Of a stretch of 64,000 bases of DNA, positions 2,302 to 50,964 are shown piece after piece. The first letter of the stretch is position 1; each line of letters opens with the position of its first letter. The stretch lies in contig CALJFZ010000002.1 of the NCBI GenBank assembly GCA_938074325.1, forward strand, positions 1 through 64,000. The letters run 5' to 3'. Under the pieces are notes generated by a model, which saw nothing but the letters and a program-made list of their open reading frames with translations, did no database searches and was not told where the DNA came from. The translations under genes and the position numbers were made by a program. Source of the DNA: an uncultured Flavobacteriales bacterium. Its GTDB lineage: Bacteria; Bacteroidota; Bacteroidia; Flavobacteriales_D; Sanyastnellaceae.

Positions 2302-4083
2302 ATGAAACGCGCATTTCTTTCCTCGACCTTCGCTTTGATTATGGCGACGACGTCGGTAGCGGTCTGCGGTCAAATAGGCCCTTGTGACTGTCCTCCCGTT
2401 GCTGATCGGCCTGTCGTGGAGGTAAGCGACATGGACGGCTTGGGGACCGGTACCACGACGTGGTCGTGCGACTCCCTTTACATATTGACCGAGACGGTGT
2501 ATGTGAACCCCGGTGACGAGTTGACCATCCTGCCCGGCACGGTGGTCCAAGGTCGCACCGGAATTGTCACCGATACATTGACCTATACCTTGCCCAACGG
2601 CAACCCATCACCGCGGGAAGACTATGTGTACAGTCAATACCCCGGCAGTTTGGTCATCAGCACTGGAGCGACCATCCATGCCGATGGGACGTCCAATTGC
2701 CCCATAGTTTTTACGTTCGAAGGTGATCCCATGGATGGAAGTGCAGGGTATGATGTTCGAGGAAAGTGGGGAGGTGTCATCGTTTGCGGTGACGGTGAAC
2801 TCAACACGTTTGATGGCAACGATGAGGCCGAAGGAGTCATGGATCTTTCCGGCCAAAACAGGCATGTGTACGGCGGCGACGGAACGGCTTTCCCCTCGTC
2901 CGGTACGCTGCGGTATGTGAGCATTCGTCACGCCTCAAGTTCGTTGGGCATCAGCCAGTTTGGCAATGGATTGGAGACCAATGCGCTGACGCTGTGTGGC
3001 GTAGGGCCAGAGACGACCGTCGAATACATCGAAGCGGTGGCTAGTGGTGACGACGGTGTGCAAATCTTCGGTGGGCTGGTCAACGTGCGCTACCTCGGAC
3101 TTGCTTTCAATGCGGAGGACGGTTTGGAATACGATCAGGGCTGGCATGGCAACGGTCAGTTCATTTTCAGCATCACCGACGAACTGAGCGGCGCAGGAGA
3201 GCACGGTGGAGATTATGAAGGCGATGATTACGAGGAATTCGATGTGGACATGACCTTCATGCCTTATTCCAATCCCCTCCTGTACAATCAAACCTACATC
3301 GGACGCGACCAAGCCACCGCGATTCGCATGCACAACGGTGCGGGAGTCCGCATGCACAACAGTGTGTTTGCCCACTTTGGTTTGGGTATCGACTTCGAGG
3401 ACGAAGACCCGTGCGATGCTTGGGAATTGTTCTTGTTTGGGGAAACCCAAATCCAAAATAACCGATTCTGGGAGATCGGGGATTCCACGGGCTTATCGGA
3501 ACTCATCCTCTACAACGAGGGCTACGTATTCAATGGCCAGGAGGAAATCGAAGCCCATTTTGTGGGCAACAATAATTACGCGGCTGACCCTGGTTTTGAT
3601 GCTGTGTTTGCTGCGGTAGAAGGACACGTGTCAGACCCCATCAACTTAGCTCCTTTGGCAGCCGAGAATTTTGTGGTGGTGGCTGAATTCATGCCCATTG
3701 ACCCGTGGTTCGTGCCGGCTGACTACATCGGTGCTTTTCCCTCCGACGGTTCGAATTGGTTGACATGCTGGACCTACATGGAGCAGTTGGGGCTCTTTGG
3801 AGAATGGGTCGATGAAGCACAAAGCATCGGAGGCTGCATGTACTCGTTTGCATGCAACTACAACCCTTCGGCAACTCATGACGACGGTTCGTGTGAAATC
3901 ACGAGCTGCGCGGGTTGCACCTGGCCCGATGCAAATAACTACGACCCTGCCGCCTTGTGGGATGACGGTTCATGTCAACTGCCTCAAGGCACTTCCTGCC
4001 CAGAGGACATCAACAACGACGGTCAGGTGAATACAGGTGATCTCCTGATGTTCCTGGGTGCTTTTGGTCAACTGTGTCCGTAA
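2302..4083 (+). CDS. Secreted right-handed beta-helix-like protein with two CTDxxACNY/DDGSC-type modules and a dockerin-like C-terminus
   Basis: Signal peptide; VNPGDELTILPGTVVQGR...GSLVISTGATIHADGTSNCPIVFTFEG...GKWGGVIVCG repeats; C-terminal CPEDINNDGQVNTGDLLMFLGAFGQLCP. Confidence 0.75.
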   Translation: MKRAFLSSTFALIMATTSVAVCGQIGPCDCPPVADRPVVEVSDMDGLGTGTTTWSCDSLYILTETVYVNPGDELTILPGTVVQGRTGIVTDTLTYTLPNGNPSPREDYVYSQYPGSLVISTGATIHADGTSNCPIVFTFEGDPMDGSAGYDVRGKWGGVIVCGDGELNTFDGNDEAEGVMDLSGQNRHVYGGDGTAFPSSGTLRYVSIRHASSSLGISQFGNGLETNALTLCGVGPETTVEYIEAVASGDDGVQIFGGLVNVRYLGLAFNAEDGLEYDQGWHGNGQFIFSITDELSGAGEHGGDYEGDDYEEFDVDMTFMPYSNPLLYNQTYIGRDQATAIRMHNGAGVRMHNSVFAHFGLGIDFEDEDPCDAWELFLFGETQIQNNRFWEIGDSTGLSELILYNEGYVFNGQEEIEAHFVGNNNYAADPGFDAVFAAVEGHVSDPINLAPLAAENFVVVAEFMPIDPWFVPADYIGAFPSDGSNWLTCWTYMEQLGLFGEWVDEAQSIGGCMYSFACNYNPSATHDDGSCEITSCAGCTWPDANNYDPAALWDDGSCQLPQGTSCPEDINNDGQVNTGDLLMFLGAFGQLCP

Positions 4084-4087
4084 CCCA

Positions 4088-5155
4088 TCATAGGCTAAAT
4101 CGGAGTCCGATGAACGGATAATCGGCCCGCAGCCGAAAGGATCTCAGTCCGGCTTCGATGGCCCATTGCGTCCCGAACGCATAAGCGAATACCGCTTGCA
4201 AGTGGCGACGGCCCAACGCTTCATCTGGGCGGGTCCAGACCCAGCCTTGCAGAAGCATGAGGTGGGCGTTTCCAAAATGCAGGTTGACGCCCAATAAGCT
4301 GGAAAGTTGGAGTTTTTCACGGGGATTCAAAGGTTGCAGATGGTAGGCGCGCAGGCTTTGATTGTGCGCCAGGTCAAGGGCTCCGGTCCATGCAAAGGCA
4401 CCGCTGATGTGCCGCTGCGCATACGCCCCTGCGCTGAGCACGGGATGTCTGGGGCCGCCGGGCAAATTGACATCCCGCATGCCTGATCGGACTGCCAAGG
4501 CGTATGTCCATCGGTGTTGTGGCGTCGAATGGGCGTGAGCCACTTCCTGCGAACGGCTGTCATTGAGCAGCCCTCCTCGCATGCGGATATGCACATTGTT
4601 GATGCCCAGATTGGGCAAAGCCAAAGCCCCATTGGAGAAATGTGTCAGGCCTGCACCCAAGGCAAGAAATGCACGGTCGCCGGACGCAATGGTGACGGAT
4701 GTACCCAAATGCAGTCCCGCATTCCATCGGGTGCCGATGGCGATGGACAACGGACGATTAATGGGATCGTACGGGGCTGAGGCCCACCCGATTCCTGTGC
4801 CCAACTCGGCATGCCAATTGGTCCGAATGGGAATCTTTATTAACCACAAAGCGCTCGCGACGCTGCCAAGTTCGTCGCTGCCACCGTCCAACCAGCCCAG
4901 TTCAACCCCTTGCCATACGGGACCGTGCTGGCTCCAGTTGGCTCGCCAACCCGCCCGATCCCAGTTTCCGCGCCGAATGCCTACGCCGTGTGAGTGGCCG
5001 GTGACCAGGGCGAGCATTTCCGCTCGGTGGGGCAGGGCGTAGCCTTTGCTGACTTCCACACCCCAATCTGGGGTTTGGGCTGAGGCCATGGGCACGGCAA
5101 ACCACGCAGCCAAGGTGGTCGCGATTCCAAAAACGATTGTACAAGAGGTCCTCAC
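4088..5155 (-). CDS. PagL-like lipid A deacylase / acyloxyacyl hydrolase family outer-membrane protein
   Basis: Signal peptide; beta-barrel-like sequence; characteristic LTHFSNGALALPNLGINN motif. GTG start. Confidence 0.75.
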   Translation of the reverse strand: MRTSCTIVFGIATTLAAWFAVPMASAQTPDWGVEVSKGYALPHRAEMLALVTGHSHGVGIRRGNWDRAGWRANWSQHGPVWQGVELGWLDGGSDELGSVASALWLIKIPIRTNWHAELGTGIGWASAPYDPINRPLSIAIGTRWNAGLHLGTSVTIASGDRAFLALGAGLTHFSNGALALPNLGINNVHIRMRGGLLNDSRSQEVAHAHSTPQHRWTYALAVRSGMRDVNLPGGPRHPVLSAGAYAQRHISGAFAWTGALDLAHNQSLRAYHLQPLNPREKLQLSSLLGVNLHFGNAHLMLLQGWVWTRPDEALGRRHLQAVFAYAFGTQWAIEAGLRSFRLRADYPFIGLRFSL

Positions 5156-5187
5156 GGTCCGAATTTAGCAAGGCATACCTTTGTGCC
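5156..5187. promoter_or_regulatory. 32-bp head-to-head promoter module between pagL-like gene and mazG
   Basis: Minus: CGAATTTA at 5160-5167 (reads TAAATTCG on the minus strand) then 4 nt to GTG 5155. Plus: TACCTTTG at 5176-5183 then 4 nt to ATG 5188. The boxes are 8 bp apart. Confidence 0.6.
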
Positions 5188-6000
5188 ATGCACAGCATTG
5201 AAGAGAAACTGGCGGCATTCGAACGGCTGCTGAAGATTATGGGCGAACTGCGTGAGCAATGTCCATGGGACCGGAAGCAGACCTTTGAAACCTTGCGCCA
5301 TTTGACGATTGAAGAAACCTACGAGTTGTCAGAGGCCATCATGGATGCCGATGTCGAGGAGATCCGAAAGGAGACCGGTGATCTATTGCTGCACATGGTC
5401 TTCTATGCGCAAATCGCAAGCGAGACGCCCCGTGAAAAAGGCGGGTGGGATATTGCCGATAGCTTGAATGGCATTTGCGACAAATTGATTGATCGCCACC
5501 CGCATATTTATGGAGATGTAGAGGCCAACGACGAAGAAACGGTCAAGGCGAACTGGGAGCAATTGAAGTTGAAAGAGGGCAAGAATTCCGTGTTGGAGGG
5601 TGTCCCCAAGGGACTGCCAAGTTTGGTAAAGGCGTACCGAATTCAGGACAAAGTTCGTGGTGTCGGCTTCGATTGGGATAACGCGGACCAAGTATGGAAC
5701 AAGGTCCAGGAGGAGTTGGGGGAGTTCCAAGCGGAGATTGCGGCTGAGTCGGATCGTGCGGCCGATGAATTTGGCGACGTTCTCTTTGCCCTGATCAATT
5801 ATGCTCGCTTCAAAGGCATCAACCCGGATGAGGCACTTGAACGCACGAACCGCCGATTTCAGGCACGTTTTCAGCATATGGAATCGGCCATCCAGGCAGG
5901 ATTGGCTGAAGGGGGTAAGCCCATGTCGGAAATGGAGTTGGCGGAATTGGATGAGCATTGGGAACGGGCTAAAATCGCATTGGGTCAAGCAGATTCGTGA
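5188..6000 (+). CDS. mazG: Nucleoside triphosphate pyrophosphohydrolase MazG
   Basis: LREQCPWDRKQTFETLRHLTIEETYELSEAI, EEIRKETGDLLLHMVFYAQIA, DKLIDRHPHIYGDV and EFGDVLFALINYAR motifs. Start moved to ATG 5188. Confidence 0.96.
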   Translation: MHSIEEKLAAFERLLKIMGELREQCPWDRKQTFETLRHLTIEETYELSEAIMDADVEEIRKETGDLLLHMVFYAQIASETPREKGGWDIADSLNGICDKLIDRHPHIYGDVEANDEETVKANWEQLKLKEGKNSVLEGVPKGLPSLVKAYRIQDKVRGVGFDWDNADQVWNKVQEELGEFQAEIAAESDRAADEFGDVLFALINYARFKGINPDEALERTNRRFQARFQHMESAIQAGLAEGGKPMSEMELAELDEHWERAKIALGQADS

Positions 6001-6743
6001 TGCGAATGGGATGGATGCCAATCTGGGCCATGCTGGCGTTAGGGTGCAACGATACGGGTGCCCCAGCCTGTTTCATGCGGGCCGGAGAAGCGATTGAAAT
6101 CGCAGAGGAGCTCGACAATGCACCGGAAGTCCTCAAGTTTTATGGCCATTTGGACATTGAATTTGAAGCCACTGACCGCCCGGGCATTGAGTTGCATTGG
6201 GAGGGGCCAGAAAATGTTCTTCATCACCGATGGACAGAATGGGATGGAAGCACATTGAACGTTGGCCACGAGGACCGCTGTCAATGGATGCGGGATTTGG
6301 GGGAGCAGGTTGAATTGCGGATTCGGTGTGCTGATGTACCTGAATTTGTTTTGCACGGGCAAGGGACGTTTGACCTGTCGCTGGTGAACCCCGAGTCGTC
6401 GGTTGTACTCGACGCTTATGCCCATGCTGGCTACCTCTCGTTGGACTGCGATGTCGATAGTTTGACCGTTCGATTGCACGCGGGTGCGAGCGTTGCTGAA
6501 GCTACTGGTGATGTCAACACGCTTTCGCTTTTTGCTTCTGGGCTCTCCTCATTGGATGCGGGAGGTGTTCAGTCAGAACGAGCATTTGTCAATCAATCGG
6601 CCCACCCACCCATATATTTTCGGGCTTCGGAATACGCGTATGTCGCCCTCAATAGCCATGGGAATGTTTACGGTGGGACGAATCCACCCTTGGATTATTT
6701 GGTCGAGGAGCAAGGGGGAGGGGCGTTGATTTGGGAGGACTGA
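5997..6743 (+). CDS. Putative lipoprotein with DUF2807/GIN-type (auto-transporter adhesin head-like) beta-solenoid domain
   Basis: Lipobox-like MLALGC; Bacteroidota DUF2807-like pattern (ADVPEFVLHGQGTFDL...LHAGASVAEATGDVNTLSLFASGLSSLDA). Start overlaps the mazG stop. Confidence 0.6.
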   Translation: MMRMGWMPIWAMLALGCNDTGAPACFMRAGEAIEIAEELDNAPEVLKFYGHLDIEFEATDRPGIELHWEGPENVLHHRWTEWDGSTLNVGHEDRCQWMRDLGEQVELRIRCADVPEFVLHGQGTFDLSLVNPESSVVLDAYAHAGYLSLDCDVDSLTVRLHAGASVAEATGDVNTLSLFASGLSSLDAGGVQSERAFVNQSAHPPIYFRASEYAYVALNSHGNVYGGTNPPLDYLVEEQGGGALIWED

Positions 6744-13430: not shown

Positions 13431-13565
13431 ACACGTCAAGGCCTGATTATACGCAGCTTTATCGCTTCGTTGAATCTGCTAATTTTCTCGATTGAAGGAT
13501 TTTTCTAATCGATGTGTTTGTTTTCATCCACGTTATTTCGTAATTTTCGGTTGCTTAACCTAGGA

Positions 13566-16500
13566 ATGATGCAGACAAAATTTTCCTTCTTACTCGGATT
13601 GCTGGTAGCCTTCTCGGGCTTTTCTAGCCCACTTTATGCTCAAACAGCTTGTTTTGGAGAGTCGAGCAGCGCAGATGCGCCCGCCGGATTCCAAATTGAG
13701 GTTGAAACCTTTGCTTCCTTTGACGGGAGCGAATCTTCACCTGCACTTGCTGAATTAGCAGGATCAACCACTTACCGTATTTACCTCAGTACTTCCGCCG
13801 AAATGGATTTCGTTTCAGCGGTGTACACCGATGGTATTGACGGTGAAGTTTCGTTGACCTCGAGCACGGATTTCTACATGAACGAATACGGCGGGTTGAC
13901 CGTGAATAACATCAACCCGGGATTGTTCTCGTTCTTTCCCGCATTGGAATACGATAGCCACGTGACCATTGGTCTGGCATCCGAAGCCGAGGCTGGAGAA
14001 TCTTCAATCATTCTGTCAGGAGAAGAAAATTGGGGCGACTCATTCCTTGCCGGTGGAGCTCTGAACATCAACAGTACAAACGCGCCTGCGGGCAGTGGTT
14101 GGTCTGTTCCTGCAGGTGCGACCAACGGTTATGCCGGTGATGACTTGCGTGTACTACTTGCTCAAGTGACCACAGACGGTGAACTCAATGGTTCTTTATT
14201 CATTGAATACATGGCTGTTGGCGCTACTGAAATGGCGAGTCACCAGTTTGGATTCTCGTCTGAAACCTGCGGATGCGATGATGCGGATGCGGCGAACTAC
14301 GATCCGTCGGTTACAATAAATGACGGATCATGTGTTTTCCCAGGTTGCACGGACGCGACCGCTTGCAACTTTGATTCAGGTGCCAACGAGGATGATGGTT
14401 CTTGCGACTACTGCTGCGATGCAGTTACTTCTTCCAATGCCGACTACGGCGTGGAAGTCGAGCTTCATGCGGTAGGTGGGATCACCGGACTCCGTACGTA
14501 CCGTTTATACGTTACCACAGCGAATGCCACCGACGTGTTGTCTGCCGTCTCAGGTTACGCTGCATACCCCTTGAACATTGAAACGACCACCGAATTTTAC
14601 CAGTACGAAGGAGCTGGCGGTGGTTTGACTCCCGCGAACTGGCAGCCTGCATTTGGACTCATTCCTATGTTCGCAGATGGAGCCTACGACTCTTACGTCA
14701 CCATCGGTTTGGACCAGGCAGCAGATGCTGGAGCTGGACAAGCAGATGTGACTCCTGTTTCCACGCCCGGAGAAGATTGGGGCGCTGAATTCGAAGCAGG
14801 CAACAACATTGCAATTTCATCGAGCTCAGGTGGAGCTTGGTTCATCTCTCCTGGTTCAACCAACGGCATTGCGGGTGATGATAACCGCGTTCTCATTGGA
14901 CAGTTTACGACCAGTGGTTACATGAGCGGAGATGTTTTCGTTCAGATTTTCCCTGAAGGCAACCAAAGCCTCAGCGAAGAAATTTACATTTCATGGACTT
15001 CGCCGCTCTGCGCCTGCACGGACGAAAGTGCGTGTAACTTTGATCCAACAGCTTTGTACGATGATGGCTCTTGCCAAGACGGACCTGCGTACTGGGGAGA
15101 GAACATCGACTGCGAGGGCAACTGCCTGAATGATGCGGACGGCGATTACGTCTGCGACGAGGACGAAGTGCCTGGTTGCTTGAACCCAGCAGCATGTAAC
15201 TACGTAGCAGCACCCACAGATTTGGTTGCCTGCGTATTCCCAGAAGAAGGACTTGATTGCGACGGCAACTGCTTGAACGACGTCGATGGAGACGGTGTTT
15301 GCGACGAGGACGAATCACAAGCCTGTACAGACGCTGCAGCTTGTAACTACAACGATGACCCTCTCGTGGATACCGATAATGCGCTTTGCGTTTACCCTGA
15401 TGCATTTGAGGATTGCGATGGCAATTGTTTCAATGACGCAGACGCTGACGGTGTGTGCGATGAGGCTGAAATTGACGGATGCACGGACGAGAGCGCTTGC
15501 AATTACGACGCTTCTGCAACCGATGAGGACGGCTCATGTGACTACTGTTGCGCAGCGGCAGCTTCGGTTGAAGGGTACAACATTGTGATTGAAACGGTTG
15601 GAACATCTCCTGAAGGAGCCATCCAACGCATGTACATCGAAACCCCGAACACTACAGACGTATTGTCTGCTGTAACGGGTGATTTGGTGAACCCAACCTA
15701 CATCCGCAGCACGCAAGGCTTCTACCAGTCAGCCATGATTACGGATGTGACTCCAAACGGAATCAACCCCGGGTTCTTTAGTTTCTTCCCTGACTTGGCT
15801 TATGACAGTTGGGTCACAATCGGAGTGGAAAGCAGCATCATCGGAGCAACTGAGTCTTCTGTTCAGGTAGTACCTGCCACAACAGATTGGGCTGCGAACT
15901 TCAATGCAGGAGGAGACATCGAAATGGAAGGTGAATTCGGTGACGGATGGTTCGTCACTTGGGATGAAACGGCTGGTACATTCACCAACGGTTTGTCCGG
16001 TGATGATAACAAAGTACTCGTGGGCCAATTCACCACCAACGGCATTTTGAGTGGTGAGTTATTCGTTCAGATGTTCCCAGAGGGCGATCAGCAGAACCCA
16101 ATCCAAGTACACTTGCCATTCGGATACGCGAGTGATGATACGGAAGCACCTTACTTCACATACGTGCCAGCGGACGTGACTCAGAGCTGTTCTGACGCAT
16201 ACCCCACTGAAATGGCAGTAGCAGAGGACGGTGGTTGCATTGCTGAAGTGGCTTTGGAATTGGTTGAAAGCATTGAACCTGCAGCATGCGGTTACACATT
16301 GACTCGCACCTGGACAGCAACAGATGCTTGGGGCAACTCAGCTACAGCAACGCAAGTGGTTTCGTTGGAAGACAACGATGCACCTGTTGCAATCGCTCAA
16401 GCGGATATGACCGTGGAGTGCATCGATGACTTGACTCCAGGTGCTGGTGTAGCGGAATTCCCAGTGAATTCTTACGACAACTGTGCTACCGACGATTTGA

Positions 16501-19500
16501 CATACGCCTATGAAGATGCTCTGTTCAATCCTGGAATTGACTTGACAGGTGTCACTGCTGATTTCCATGTTGAAATGGGCAAGAACATTGGCGGTCCATT
16601 TGGTCAATCACTCATTCTGGAAGCCAACGGCGTGACCATCGGCGACGGAGTAGAGATTGGTTACGATAATCTCTTGGAAAACCCATCAAACCACCGCGGT
16701 GCGATCGCGGTAGACGTGTCGGGCTCTTCCATCAATGCATTTGTTGAAGGAACAAACGGATTCCCTTACCAGTACGACTACGCTGTGGTGACCATCTCGA
16801 ACATGTCAGTAGACAACATCGCAGGTGTAACAGTGGGGGCCAATGGCATTGCTCCAGGAACTTCTGTTTCTGTATCAACCGATGGCAACAGCATCGTTCT
16901 CACCTGGGACGGCACGGCAACCTACACGGATGGTGAAGCTGCAGACTTCTCGGTGGATAACACCTCAACTTGCTTGGCCACTTCCGGTATCATGCGTACA
17001 TGGACCGTGACGGACGGTTGCAACAACTCGAGCACTGCTGTTCAGTACTTTACCATTGTTGATACGCAGGGCCCTGAATTCACTTCGACCCCAGCCAATC
17101 TGGAGTTGTCGTGCAACGATGAAATTCCTTCAGCTACAGTTGAAGCATCCGATTGCGGCAACGTGATGATCTCAGAGCCAGTGGATGTAATCCAAGACGG
17201 TTCATGTGGCGTTTCTTACACGGTATTCCGCACGTGGACTGCAACCGATGATTGCGGCAATGCATCTGAGTACACGCAAACGATCATGTTCACGGACACT
17301 GAAGCACCTGTATTTACGTCATTCCCTGAAGACGTGACTTACACAGCAGGCGATGACATGGTGGTCATGGAGCCAACTGCTTCGGATGATTGCAACGAAG
17401 TGACCATTTCTTACAGCGATAGCCAGGACAACAGCAGCATCGAACTGACGGTGATCACACGCACTTGGACGGCTACTGACGCTTGTGGAAACAGCGTGTC
17501 TGCTGATCAAATTATCACTGTTAATGAGGTATTGGGTTGCATGGACGATACCGCTTGTAATTACAACGCGGGTGCTTCATACGACGACGGTAGCTGCGAT
17601 TACTGCTCTTGTGGCAGTGGCGGTGAGGCTGGCTTTGGTCTCGAACTGGAGTTGGTGGCTAACCATGATGGTTCTACACCGGGATTGGCTGCTGGTATGA
17701 ATACGTACCGCGTGTACGTGACCACACCAAGTGCGGATGATTTCGTCAGTTCAGTATCGGGTGACGAAAACGTCCCAGCTTACTTGCGTACGACGACTTC
17801 GTTCTACCAGGACGCATTTGGCAGCATCAGCCCAGATAACATCAACGCTTTGTTCTACACGGTTGTCCCAAGCTTGGCTTACGACAGTTGGTTGACCATG
17901 GGCATTGAATCTGCGCCTGTGGGTGACGAAAGCGCCATCACGTTTGTTGAAGCGCCAGGCGATAACTGGACGGCTGAATTCAACGCGGGCAATGATTTGG
18001 AGATCGACAGTTTCTTCGGTGGCTCATGGTTCGCCTTGATCACTGCAAGCAATGGCTACGCAGGTGAAGATCAGCGTGTTTTGGTCGCTCAATTGACCAC
18101 AAGCGGTGAAGTCACGGGGCAACTCTACGTTCAAGTCTTCCCGAATGGAGACCAGAGCCAAGACACTTACTTGACACTGAGCTTCGGAGGAAACGAGTGT
18201 GGATGTACGGATGAAGCGGCATGTAACTTCGATTCCGAGGCAACATTTGACGATGGATCTTGTGCCTACCCTGAATTTGGCTACGATTGCGGTGGCAATT
18301 GCTTGAGCGATGTCGACGGCGACGGTGTGTGCGACGAGCTCGAAATCTTCGGTTGCACCACAGAAGGAAACTGCTTGTACGATCCAAATGCGACTGAGCA
18401 CGACGAAGACATGTGTCAAGTGTCGCCATTCTGCATTGGATGTAACGATGCGGCCGCTTGTAACTTCAATCCGAATGTGAATCCAGAACCCAACTTCAAC
18501 GACGGTTCTTGTGAATACCCAGAGGACGGATTCGATTGCGACGGAAGCTGCATTGATTCCAACGGCGACTTGATCTGCGACATCCTCCAAGGATGCGGTG
18601 ACCCAGCGGCTTGTAACTACGAGGAAGGAGTGGAGTACCCATCATTGGACTTCTGTGACTTCTGCAGCTGCCCGAATGTCATGAGCAGCGAAGACGGCTA
18701 CGGCATCGAAGTAGAGGCAATGGAGAGCGGCATTGAAGGGGCTACAACGTACCAGGTTTACGTGACCACCCCAACTTCAACGGATGTTGTAAATGCGATT
18801 TTGGGTAACGCAATGAATCCAATCATATTGGCTTCTTCCAGCGAAATCTACCAGAGCCCACAAGGTTCGGCTTTGCCATCACCTTCTGAAATGTTCGGAT
18901 TCTACCCTGAATTGGAGTACGACTCGTACGTGACCTTGGGCGCTGGAACGCCTGCAGAGGCAATGGACTTCCCGCCAACCGACGATGGAAATGCACCGGA
19001 TTGGGTTGCTTCTTTCGAGAACGGTGGCAACATCGTCATCGACGACGTAGTTGGTAGCGGTTGGTACATGAATGCCGATGTGATGGGCGAGTATGGAGTA
19101 GCAGGTGATGACAACCGTGTCTTGGTTGCTCAATTGACTACACCAGGTACTATCCACGGGCAGCTTTACGTGCAGGTCTTCCCAGAAGGACTGTCTGCTG
19201 GCAATACGCTCTACTTGACGCTGTCCTTCGGAAGCGACGCATGTGGATGTACTGATCCAATGGCGTGCAACTATGACGAAGCCAACGTCACGGACGATGG
19301 CACATGCTTCTACGCTGATGAAGGCGAAACGTGCGAAGGAACTTGCTTATACGACGGCTTTGATCCCGAAGTGGTCGCTAACGAGGCTGCTTACACCACA
19401 ACGTGTGAGGAAGCTGCAGATGACATCCGCCAGCCTGTCTTCGCAGATAACTGCGCTGAAAACCTCGACATTAGCTTCTCTGATGTGGTTACCATGGGCG

Positions 19501-21353
19501 ATTGTGAAGGTTCTTGGACCATCAACCGAACGTGGACTGCAGTAGATAACCACGGCAATTCAGTAACTGCAGAGCAAGTCATCAGCGTTGTCGATACAAC
19601 TGCTCCAACATTCACGGTTCCAGCGGCGGTAAGCATTTCATGCACAGGTGACGCCAATGACTTGGCTGCTACTGGTGATGTCACGGATGCAATGGATGCC
19701 TGCAGCAATGAGGTATCTGTTATGTACAGTGACGCATTCTCAACCGACGGATGTTTCGCGAACAACGTCATCACCCGAACGTGGACAGCAACGGATGCTT
19801 GCGGAAATGTCGCGTCTCAAATGCAGATCATCACATTGGTCGACGACAATGCACCATACTTCACGAGCGTACCAGAAGGTTTGACCATGGCATGTGGTGA
19901 TGAAATTCCAGCCGTAAACGCAACTGCTGCAGATGCATGCTCGGATGTAACTGTAACCTATGCAGATGCAGAAGGGGATGCCATTTGCACTGGTCTTTTC
20001 GAAATCGTACGAACATTCACAGCAACCGATGCGTGTGGCAATGTTTCCACTGCGACGCAAATCATCACTTTTGTCGACGATGAAGCGCCGGAAGGCAGCG
20101 TTGAGGACGCGATGGTAGCTTGTTCCGACTACAGCAGCGATGCCGAGTTCGGTAGCTACGAAGTAAACGACAACTGTAGCGATGCGGTTACTGTGACTTG
20201 GGAGGAAACTTCCAGCACGGCTGAAGGTTCTGCTGGTTGCTTCGAGGTTACCCGCACGTACACGTTCACCGACGGCTGTGGAAATGCTTCGACCGCCGTA
20301 CAGACCCTTTCTGTCTTTGACGATGAGGCACCTGTACTGAGTGAGGTAGCAAGTGCGGTTGAGTTGCAGTGCGGCGACGAAATTCCAGCACCAACGGCTA
20401 CTGACAACTGCTCAAGTGTTGAGGTGACCTTCAGCGATGAGGTGACGGGTGTAAGCTGCTCTGGAGAAGAGACATTCATCCGCACGTACACTGCCACAGA
20501 TGCTTGCGGTAACGCGTCCTCTGTGTCGGTTGAAGTGACGTACAATGACACGGTAGCGCCGACCTTCACCGCGCCTGTTGATGTAACGATTGAATGCGAT
20601 AGCGACTTAAGCGACTTGTCCTTGACCGGTGACGTAATGGACGCTGCGGACGTTTGCAGTGCGGACATTTTGGTGTCGTATTCTGACGCAGTAAGCACGT
20701 CTGAAGGTTCTTGCTTAGCCGACAACGTCGTCACCCGCACGTGGGTTGTGACGGACGGTTGTGGTAACTTCAGCTCAGCCACGCAAGTGATCACCCTCCA
20801 AGACACAACTGGTCCAGCGGTTACGTTCGAAGCGAACGTAACGCTCGAGAATGTTGCCACCAGCGAATTGAATGACTTCGTCGAGGTAGAAGTTTCAGAC
20901 GCATGCAGCGACTGGACGTACACCACTACAGACGTTTGGGAGGGCAACAGCTTGACGGGGTACGAGTTGAATCGCACCATGGTCTTCACGGACGCTTGCG
21001 GTAACTCAACAACAATTGAACAGAACATCACAGCGGTGTACGCTTCGGGATGTACTTACATGGATGCTGAGAACTACGATCCAGCTGCCATCATCGACGA
21101 TGGTTCATGTGAATACACTGGTTGTACAGACATGGCCTCTGCCAACTACAACCCGATTGCGAGCATCGACGATGGTTCATGTGTGACCGTTGGTTGTATG
21201 GATCCTGACGGATACGACTACGATCCGAATGCAAACTACCCAGGTGGTTGCGATTACCCAGACCCATGTCCTGGTGACATCAACGACGACGGCCTCGTCA
21301 ACGTTGGTGACCTGTTGGAGTTCTTCCAATACTACGGGCAGGTGTGTGAGTAA
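13566..21353 (+). CDS. Giant (~2.6k aa) secreted Cys/Asp-rich repeat protein: five 'YDSWVTIG/AGDD' domains, many CTDxxACNYD-DDGSC modules, HYR-like repeats and a dockerin-like C-terminus
   Basis: Signal peptide MMQTKFSFLLGLLVAFSGFSSPLYAQ; repeated TRTWTATDACGN...TDTEAPVFTSFP (HYR-like) units; C-terminal CPGDINDDGLVNVGDLLEFFQYYGQVCE. One uninterrupted ORF. Confidence 0.9.
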   Translation: MMQTKFSFLLGLLVAFSGFSSPLYAQTACFGESSSADAPAGFQIEVETFASFDGSESSPALAELAGSTTYRIYLSTSAEMDFVSAVYTDGIDGEVSLTSSTDFYMNEYGGLTVNNINPGLFSFFPALEYDSHVTIGLASEAEAGESSIILSGEENWGDSFLAGGALNINSTNAPAGSGWSVPAGATNGYAGDDLRVLLAQVTTDGELNGSLFIEYMAVGATEMASHQFGFSSETCGCDDADAANYDPSVTINDGSCVFPGCTDATACNFDSGANEDDGSCDYCCDAVTSSNADYGVEVELHAVGGITGLRTYRLYVTTANATDVLSAVSGYAAYPLNIETTTEFYQYEGAGGGLTPANWQPAFGLIPMFADGAYDSYVTIGLDQAADAGAGQADVTPVSTPGEDWGAEFEAGNNIAISSSSGGAWFISPGSTNGIAGDDNRVLIGQFTTSGYMSGDVFVQIFPEGNQSLSEEIYISWTSPLCACTDESACNFDPTALYDDGSCQDGPAYWGENIDCEGNCLNDADGDYVCDEDEVPGCLNPAACNYVAAPTDLVACVFPEEGLDCDGNCLNDVDGDGVCDEDESQACTDAAACNYNDDPLVDTDNALCVYPDAFEDCDGNCFNDADADGVCDEAEIDGCTDESACNYDASATDEDGSCDYCCAAAASVEGYNIVIETVGTSPEGAIQRMYIETPNTTDVLSAVTGDLVNPTYIRSTQGFYQSAMITDVTPNGINPGFFSFFPDLAYDSWVTIGVESSIIGATESSVQVVPATTDWAANFNAGGDIEMEGEFGDGWFVTWDETAGTFTNGLSGDDNKVLVGQFTTNGILSGELFVQMFPEGDQQNPIQVHLPFGYASDDTEAPYFTYVPADVTQSCSDAYPTEMAVAEDGGCIAEVALELVESIEPAACGYTLTRTWTATDAWGNSATATQVVSLEDNDAPVAIAQADMTVECIDDLTPGAGVAEFPVNSYDNCATDDLTYAYEDALFNPGIDLTGVTADFHVEMGKNIGGPFGQSLILEANGVTIGDGVEIGYDNLLENPSNHRGAIAVDVSGSSINAFVEGTNGFPYQYDYAVVTISNMSVDNIAGVTVGANGIAPGTSVSVSTDGNSIVLTWDGTATYTDGEAADFSVDNTSTCLATSGIMRTWTVTDGCNNSSTAVQYFTIVDTQGPEFTSTPANLELSCNDEIPSATVEASDCGNVMISEPVDVIQDGSCGVSYTVFRTWTATDDCGNASEYTQTIMFTDTEAPVFTSFPEDVTYTAGDDMVVMEPTASDDCNEVTISYSDSQDNSSIELTVITRTWTATDACGNSVSADQIITVNEVLGCMDDTACNYNAGASYDDGSCDYCSCGSGGEAGFGLELELVANHDGSTPGLAAGMNTYRVYVTTPSADDFVSSVSGDENVPAYLRTTTSFYQDAFGSISPDNINALFYTVVPSLAYDSWLTMGIESAPVGDESAITFVEAPGDNWTAEFNAGNDLEIDSFFGGSWFALITASNGYAGEDQRVLVAQLTTSGEVTGQLYVQVFPNGDQSQDTYLTLSFGGNECGCTDEAACNFDSEATFDDGSCAYPEFGYDCGGNCLSDVDGDGVCDELEIFGCTTEGNCLYDPNATEHDEDMCQVSPFCIGCNDAAACNFNPNVNPEPNFNDGSCEYPEDGFDCDGSCIDSNGDLICDILQGCGDPAACNYEEGVEYPSLDFCDFCSCPNVMSSEDGYGIEVEAMESGIEGATTYQVYVTTPTSTDVVNAILGNAMNPIILASSSEIYQSPQGSALPSPSEMFGFYPELEYDSYVTLGAGTPAEAMDFPPTDDGNAPDWVASFENGGNIVIDDVVGSGWYMNADVMGEYGVAGDDNRVLVAQLTTPGTIHGQLYVQVFPEGLSAGNTLYLTLSFGSDACGCTDPMACNYDEANVTDDGTCFYADEGETCEGTCLYDGFDPEVVANEAAYTTTCEEAADDIRQPVFADNCAENLDISFSDVVTMGDCEGSWTINRTWTAVDNHGNSVTAEQVISVVDTTAPTFTVPAAVSISCTGDANDLAATGDVTDAMDACSNEVSVMYSDAFSTDGCFANNVITRTWTATDACGNVASQMQIITLVDDNAPYFTSVPEGLTMACGDEIPAVNATAADACSDVTVTYADAEGDAICTGLFEIVRTFTATDACGNVSTATQIITFVDDEAPEGSVEDAMVACSDYSSDAEFGSYEVNDNCSDAVTVTWEETSSTAEGSAGCFEVTRTYTFTDGCGNASTAVQTLSVFDDEAPVLSEVASAVELQCGDEIPAPTATDNCSSVEVTFSDEVTGVSCSGEETFIRTYTATDACGNASSVSVEVTYNDTVAPTFTAPVDVTIECDSDLSDLSLTGDVMDAADVCSADILVSYSDAVSTSEGSCLADNVVTRTWVVTDGCGNFSSATQVITLQDTTGPAVTFEANVTLENVATSELNDFVEVEVSDACSDWTYTTTDVWEGNSLTGYELNRTMVFTDACGNSTTIEQNITAVYASGCTYMDAENYDPAAIIDDGSCEYTGCTDMASANYNPIASIDDGSCVTVGCMDPDGYDYDPNANYPGGCDYPDPCPGDINDDGLVNVGDLLEFFQYYGQVCE
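13689..14270 (+). other. 'YDSWVTIG/AGDD' domain copy A1
   Basis: TTYRIYLST...DFVSAVY...FFPALEYDSHVTIGL...NGYAGDDLRVLLAQVTTDGELNGSLF. Boundaries approximate. Confidence 0.75.
14441..15012 (+). other. 'YDSWVTIG/AGDD' domain copy A2
   Basis: RTYRLYVTT...VLSAVSG...FYQ...AYDSYVTIGL...GGAWF...NGIAGDDNRVLIGQFTTSGYMSGDVFVQIFPEG. Boundaries approximate. Confidence 0.75.
15573..16140 (+). other. 'YDSWVTIG/AGDD' domain copy A3
   Basis: DVLSAVTGD...FYQ...NPGFFSFFPDLAYDSWVTIGV...NGLSGDDNKVLVGQFTTNGILSGELFVQMFPEG. Boundaries approximate. Confidence 0.75.
17631..18204 (+). other. 'YDSWVTIG/AGDD' domain copy A4
   Basis: NTYRVYVTT...DFVSSVSGD...FYQ...LAYDSWLTMGI...GGSWF...NGYAGEDQRVLVAQLTTSGEVTGQLYVQVFPNG. 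Boundaries approximate. Confidence 0.75.
18695..19243 (+). other. 'YDSWVTIG/AGDD' domain copy A5
   Basis: TTYQVYVTT...FGFYPELEYDSYVTLG...GSGWYM...YGVAGDDNRVLVAQLTTPGTIHGQLYVQVFPEG. Boundaries approximate. Confidence 0.75.
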
Positions 21354-50146: not shown

Positions 50147-50482
50147 TTACGGCCTGTTCTGGCGGTTGATGCGCTCGTGTACAAACCACAAGATGAGCGA
50201 TAGTAAGGGGACGATGCCCAGCGATGCAGGTGACGCATCAAGCACGGCCCATTGCCCGAGGCAAACGGCAACGGAAACAATGCACAAGCTGACGACAACG
50301 ATGCTGAAGAACGACCGATCCCAGTTGGGTGAATTCAAGGCGATGCTGATGAGCAATGGCACCAATGTCGCAAGAGAGGCCAACAACCAAGCAACTGCCG
50401 CTGGGTCCTGCGTGAGTCCGAGAAAGGAATACAGAAACAACCCCAACCAACCGAGGCGAGAGATGGTTTGCATTTTCTTCAT
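50147..50482 (-). CDS. Hypothetical small membrane protein
   Basis: 111 aa with about four hydrophobic segments; preceded by an exact TACCTTTG-N4-ATG element. Confidence 0.6.
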   Translation of the reverse strand: MKKMQTISRLGWLGLFLYSFLGLTQDPAAVAWLLASLATLVPLLISIALNSPNWDRSFFSIVVVSLCIVSVAVCLGQWAVLDASPASLGIVPLLSLILWFVHERINRQNRP

Positions 50483-50514
50483 GAGCCAAAGGTACGAGCC
50501 GGTACTTTTGCCCC
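50483..50514. promoter_or_regulatory. 32-bp head-to-head promoter module between membrane protein and thioesterase genes
   Basis: Minus: CAAAGGTA 50487-50494 (TACCTTTG), 4 nt to ATG 50482. Plus: TACTTTTG 50503-50510, 4 nt to ATG 50515. Boxes 8 bp apart. Confidence 0.65.
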
Positions 50515-50964
50515 ATGCAAGACTTTCTTCTGCCTCCTGGACAGGTATACACTCCGGAAATCCGCTTTGTCGATATCGATGCTGCTGGCATCGTCAACAA
50601 TGCCACTTACTTCAATTACTTCGAACAGAGTCGGATTGCCTTCTTTGAGCCCTTGCTCGGTAAGAAATGGGATTGGAATGTAGCGGGCATGGTGGTCGCT
50701 CGCCATGAAATTGACTATCGTCTGCCCATCCTATTCAACGACAATGTGCGCATCATTACCTGGATTGAGCACATCGGAGGCAAAAGCATGACGGCTGCGT
50801 ATGAGGTGTACAAGGTACATGGAGAGGATTGGGGGCTCGTAGCTGAAGCCAAGACGGTTTTGGTTTCCTTTGATCACCGTGCAGGTCGTCCAGTCGCCTG
50901 GGCAACGGAAGTGGTAGAGGCGGCGAAGGAATTTGGGTTGGGCCGGCCTCAAATTTCAGTTTGA
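50515..50964 (+). CDS. Acyl-CoA thioesterase, 4HBT/YbgC-like hotdog fold
   Basis: IRFVDIDAAGIVNNATYFNYFEQSRIAFF and HEIDYRLPILFNDNVRIITWIEHIGGKSM motifs. Confidence 0.92.
   Translation: MQDFLLPPGQVYTPEIRFVDIDAAGIVNNATYFNYFEQSRIAFFEPLLGKKWDWNVAGMVVARHEIDYRLPILFNDNVRIITWIEHIGGKSMTAAYEVYKVHGEDWGLVAEAKTVLVSFDHRAGRPVAWATEVVEAAKEFGLGRPQISV

Follow-up and report, generated by a model that had tools for sequence, protein, structure and literature searches.

Two unrelated divergent gene pairs in the window (the whole 64,000-nucleotide stretch analysed here) are each separated by exactly 32 bp, and in both the gap is laid out as 4 + 8 + 8 + 8 + 4 bp around two boxes that face apart. The question raised by the first of these loci, between a pagL-like gene and mazG, is whether the length itself is a constrained architecture, as the first-pass annotation had proposed. 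The reading favoured here, with a probability of roughly 0.85, is that the 32 bp hold two ordinary back-to-back Bacteroidota sigma-A promoters of leaderless genes, and that the exact length is not a conserved design.

The region between the pagL-like gene and mazG

Direct reading of positions 5153–5190 gives CAC GGTC CGAATTTA GCAAGGCA TACCTTTG TGCC ATG. The head-to-head region and its boxes are present as first described, with a minus-strand GTG at 5155, a plus-strand ATG at 5188 and 32 bp between them, arranged as GTG <- GACC-TAAATTCG / gcaaggca / TACCTTTG-TGCC -> ATG. The naming of the two genes as pagL-like and mazG was also correct, as judged from the profile matches given with the features below; the second 32 bp region is listed last.

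4088–5155, minus strand: pagL-like gene of the lipid A 3-O-deacylase family, with a signal peptide and a GTG start at 5155; Pfam PF09411, E = 1.3e-9
5156–5159, minus strand: 4 bp between box and start of the pagL-like gene, read from the sequence; 4–8 bp in relatives
5160–5167, minus strand: putative -7 element TAAATTCG for the pagL-like gene; its fixed positions vary little or not at all among 21 genus members
5168–5175, no strand: spacer gcaaggca between the two putative -7 elements; 8 bp in 21/21 genus members
5176–5183, plus strand: putative -7 element TACCTTTG of the mazG promoter; T-12 A-11 T-8 T-7 Y-6 G-5 in 21/21
5184–5187, plus strand: 4 bp between box and start of mazG; box-N4-ATG is the genome-wide peak
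5188–6000, plus strand: mazG, nucleoside triphosphate pyrophosphohydrolase; PF03819, E = 3.7e-30; TIGR00444, E = 2e-77; NF007113, E = 4.8e-91
50147–50482, minus strand: 111-aa unassigned gene, left partner of the companion region
50483–50514, no strand: companion 32 bp region, CAT GAGC CAAAGGTA CGAGCCGG TACTTTTG CCCC ATG, both boxes at N4
50515–50964, plus strand: 4HBT thioesterase-like gene, right partner of the companion region

In each of the 21 genus members compared, mazG and the pagL-like gene are divergent neighbours. There is no sign of functional coupling between MazG and the PagL-like protein, and the sharing of one layout by two unrelated gene pairs argues against a common purpose. 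An Rfam search of positions 4000–6400 returned no RNA family. Elsewhere in the window, 13512–21353 and 2302–4083 encode secreted-type proteins of very large size in which Cys- and Asp-rich GCTDxxACNYD motifs are repeated.

Identity of the boxes and their distance from the start codon

The sequence TAnnTTTG serves the housekeeping sigma factor of Bacteroidota as its -7 element, accompanied by a weak -33 TTTG (PMC6847099, PMC9723704). In Flavobacterium johnsoniae, RNA-seq places this element at -12 to -5 (T-12…G-5), 4 or 5 nt before the transcription start (PMC6847099). The mazG box is an exact match to it (H at the n positions), the pagL-like box carries C in place of the third T, and both are conserved in 21 species.

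An enrichment of TAnnTTTG had been proposed as a check on the first-pass annotation. Counted as a word, the motif is no commoner in the window than expected (18 against 20.1); the enrichment is positional, with 64 occurrences of TAnnTTTG-N4-ATG across the genome (2.15 Mb in 59 contigs, 88% complete) against 19 in the reversed control. In an 854-kb sample, TAnnTTTG preceded ATG 28 times at a spacing of k = 4 and 1–11 times at every other k from 0 to 40; when TTCG was also allowed, the same scan gave 50 at a spacing of 4 and 3–16 at the others. Among 636 called genes, TAHHTTYG lies exactly 4 bp before the start in 32 cases, with 9, 7 and 5 cases at k = 5, 6 and 7 and 0–6 elsewhere, and the reversed control gave none at these distances. 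The proposed enrichment check thus comes out in favour, because box-N4-ATG marks promoters throughout this genome. The logo of the N4 boxes agrees with the published element: G is all but absent from both n positions, and 89% have C at -1. In the N4 boxes of this genome TTCG and TTTG are about equally frequent.

No TTG was found at the distance expected of a -33 TTTG/TTG element in either promoter, and no such element appears in the genome-wide logo. This is not treated as decisive against a sigma-A promoter, because the -33 element is weak or hard to see in F. johnsoniae too (PMC6847099). Together, these data make it very probable that both boxes are genuine -7 elements of the sigma-A type (TAnnTTYG).

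Since the distance from box to transcription start in F. johnsoniae is 4 or 5 nt, genes with a box 4 bp before the start codon should be leaderless. The predicted transcription start of mazG is the A of the ATG at 5188, and that of the pagL-like gene lies at or adjoining 5155. A promoter box held at a fixed distance from the start codon, as expected of leaderless genes, is seen here both in the sharp peak at k = 4 and in the N4 position of the mazG box in 21/21 genus members. Moreover, the share of called genes with a box at exactly k = 4 (∼ 5%) agrees with the 5.5% of leaderless mRNAs established by transcription start mapping in F. psychrophilum (PMC9723704).

The boxes resemble the sigma-ABfr promoters of Bacteroides fragilis, F. 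johnsoniae (PMC6847099) and F. psychrophilum (PMC9723704) in sequence, in the avoidance of G at the n positions, in the 4-nt distance from box to start and in the weak or absent -33 element; they differ in that the transcription start is predicted to fall on the start codon, and in the near parity of TTCG and TTTG at N4. A fixed short distance and a first T at -12 are also shared with leaderless genes that carry a TA-like signal ∼ 12 bp upstream (Zheng et al., 2011, PMC3160421), a signal detected in that survey in only 1 of 37 Bacteroidetes/Chlorobi genomes.

Conservation of the boxes and drift of one start codon

The locus was compared across 21 genus members, namely this genome and 20 relatives. 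Positions T-12, A-11, T-8, T-7 and G-5 of the mazG box are invariant, and -6 is either T or C. The pagL-like box varies just as little, with a mean of 1.75 bits per column compared with 0.39 in the adjoining pagL-like coding sequence. The spacer is 8 bp long in 21/21 members and moderately conserved in sequence (1.15 bits). The mazG box stands 4 bp from the ATG in every member, and at N4 in most relatives of the same family as well.

The start codon on the other side behaves differently. Few columns are as poorly conserved as those of the pagL-like start codon (0.30 bits), and the start lies 4, 5, 6, 7 or 8 bp from its box among species, so that the gap ranges from 32 to 36 bp; this species has GTG at 4 bp and its near relatives ATG at 7 bp. 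In a related genus the locus has a 6 bp spacer and a 30 bp gap, and in another genus the spacer is 2 bp. The near-invariance of the boxes, set beside the drift of the pagL-like start, indicates that selection acts on the promoters and not on the 32 bp length. What is constrained is the 4 bp distance from box to start on the mazG side, together with the box spacing within each inherited locus. The proposal that the boxes are constrained promoter elements placed back to back therefore held up, with the box spacing at this locus conserved in 21/21 genus members.

These data bear on two alternatives. If the genes were merely packed by chance and the boxes were random matches, one would expect the double box to be no commoner than in a control, and this is the case: CNAANNTA-N8-TANNTTNG occurs at two places in the whole 2.15-Mb genome, both already reported, against three reversed-control matches. 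Chance packing is nevertheless contradicted by boxes that hardly vary among 21 species while the coding sequence next to them has diverged, and the sharp positional enrichment of the box also speaks against it, leaving it hardly any probability. In the second alternative, a dimeric transcription factor regulating the two genes together would bind the inverted repeat (CAAAGGTAC…GTACTTTTG) as its operator. The repeat, albeit imperfect, and the moderate conservation of the spacer would fit such a site; yet any -7 element present in two divergent copies will form an inverted repeat, dozens of genes have a single box at N4 and no inverted partner, and the variation of the box follows the -7 consensus. 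The spacers of the two modules also differ (gcaaggca at 5156–5187, cgagccgg at 50483–50514). On balance an operator is very unlikely.

A leaderless mazG promoter across the whole phylum was considered and rejected: in other Bacteroidota the box, where seen, lies mostly 14–46 bp upstream of the matched mazG start. Several Dyadobacter have an in-frame start that lies 30 bp ahead of the matched region, and a box at N4 to that start.

The 32 bp length among divergent gene pairs

The full 38-mer, start codons included, has no reversed-control match in any of 60 genomes and is therefore not a chance pattern. It is present in 17/22 genus genomes and in 1/38 sampled relatives outside the genus, that one belonging to another family; 38-mers similar to the companion region are present in many genus members. 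The counts within the genus, the empty reversed control and the exact sharing of geometry by two unrelated gene pairs in the window are what favours a constrained head-to-head module, in which boxes and start codons must keep 4 + 8 + 8 + 8 + 4 bp, for example to couple the two genes.

The distribution of divergent gaps gives a different picture. It was taken from a 40% sample of this genome, drawn as stretches and comprising 103 called pairs (patterns were searched genome-wide). Gap lengths are widely spread, the short ones falling at 29, 33, 34, 34, 35 and 37 bp, and the genome-wide distance check proposed earlier, as carried out on this sample, shows no peak at 32 bp. The simple gene caller missed one partner in each reported pair; with both added there are just two gaps of 32 bp. 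The double-box layout likewise shows no genome-wide excess.

Spacers were also counted for pairs of leaderless boxes in 115 genomes of the family, with reversed controls of 0 throughout. The 93 genomes outside the genus hold 61 pairs with spacers of 2–10 bp, 48 with 11–19 bp and 49 with 20–28 bp (per-genome columns summed). None of the 61 compact pairs has an 8 bp spacer, while spacers of 2–7, 9 and 10 bp do occur. Neither 32 bp gaps nor 8 bp spacers are thus in excess over neighbouring values at unrelated loci. A fixed module, confined to two loci in this genome and matched so rarely outside the genus, is already contradicted by a pagL-like start that shifts by 1–4 bp among species, and must be judged very unlikely. 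The first-pass annotation was right that this is more than chance gene packing, given near-invariant boxes and the lack of control 38-mers, but its fixed 32 bp architecture is not supported by a distribution with no peak at 32 bp, by gaps of 32–36 bp in relatives and by other spacers outside the genus. The length is not a design rule: 32 is the sum of 4 + 8 + 8 + 8 + 4 at two loci, each happening to carry an 8 bp spacer and inherited within one genus.

Other back-to-back pairs were seen in this genome. Boxes 8 bp apart also occur in a third divergent pair (C2:78880–78918; 14880–14918 of stretch L031), which has a gap of 33 bp and reads CAT GGAA CAAAATTA GGACGTGG TAACTTGC GAAGC ATG; the second of its boxes is similar to TAnnTTGY, the SM5 motif of F. 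psychrophilum. Back-to-back leaderless promoter pairs at C11:80005–80058 and C46:8254–8309 have spacers of 24 and 26 bp and gaps of 48 and 50 bp, so other spacings exist within the same genome.

Spacing classes within the genus

Within the genus, 78 leaderless back-to-back pairs have spacers of 0–30 bp, divided into 23 at 2–10 bp (every listed spacer being 8–10 bp), none at 11–19 bp and 55 at 20–28 bp; many of these are mutual orthologues, and the independent loci perhaps number ∼ 20. Automatic clustering into loci merges those with short spacers, where the boxes dominate the sequence, and its 2–10 bp counts were left out. When start codons are ignored, back-to-back TAHHTTTG boxes number 28 at 11–19 bp (reversed control 11) and 119 at 20–28 bp (control 9), and those at 11–19 bp are mostly 16 bp apart and come from a small number of repeated sequences. 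Boxes separated by exactly 16 bp, whose spacers are alike (CGAGATGAACAGGGCG type), recur at C11:62227–62258 in this genome and in genus relatives (for example G001:C4:147301–147332), and make up much of the sparse 11–19 bp class.

Box spacing thus looks bimodal (8–10 or 20–28 bp, rarely 11–19 bp), a genus-level oddity. A universal ban on 11–19 bp spacers was rejected for the family, as pairs with such spacers are present in 37/115 genomes, all outside the genus, and other genera use these distances freely. It is conceivable, if doubtful, that the genus tolerates back-to-back -7 boxes at 8–10 bp (interleaved) or at ∼ 20 bp and above, with 11–19 bp selected against; at these intermediate distances the -33 or upstream region of one promoter may fall on the -7 box of the other. 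The 32 bp regions would then represent the most compact register allowed by a physical spacing rule for divergent Bacteroidota promoters.

Two probable promoters within one polymerase footprint

Under the preferred reading, the 32 bp accommodate two housekeeping promoters of the sigma-A (sigma-ABfr) type, independent of each other and facing apart, which would work as follows. With each -7 element 4 bp before a start codon, RNA polymerase would begin at the first base of that codon and yield a leaderless mRNA, or one with a 1–4 nt leader for the pagL-like genes of relatives. The upstream half of each promoter would sit in the start region and coding sequence of the other gene. A single polymerase footprint is far longer than the 33 bp between the predicted starts, and two polymerases cannot both sit on these starts; one promoter would probably be occupied at a time, and firing is probably mutually exclusive.

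Bidirectional promoters of Escherichia coli (Warman et al., 2026, PMC12825309) are similar in that two promoters face apart within one polymerase footprint, where a bound polymerase should exclude the other. Their starts are commonly 10, 18 or 23 bp apart, as the promoter sequence itself is symmetric (PMC12825309), whereas here the -7 boxes are separate, 8 bp apart, and the predicted starts lie 33 bp apart, outside that pattern of symmetric elements. In E. coli, polymerase competition matters only if one direction is strongly activated (PMC12825309).

Besides the lack of a recognisable -33 element, two observations count against the preferred reading. The moderate conservation of the spacer could point to an additional bound factor, and the bimodal spacings of the genus are left unexplained by a pure ‘any spacing will do’ view.

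Overall, a striking symmetric pattern is explained by known parts. In this uncultured Flavobacteriales lineage ∼ 5% of called genes carry the housekeeping box at a leaderless distance, which is useful for correcting annotated start codons, as box-N4-RTG marks the start codon. Naturally compact divergent promoters of this kind also offer a set of Bacteroidota loci for testing polymerase competition.
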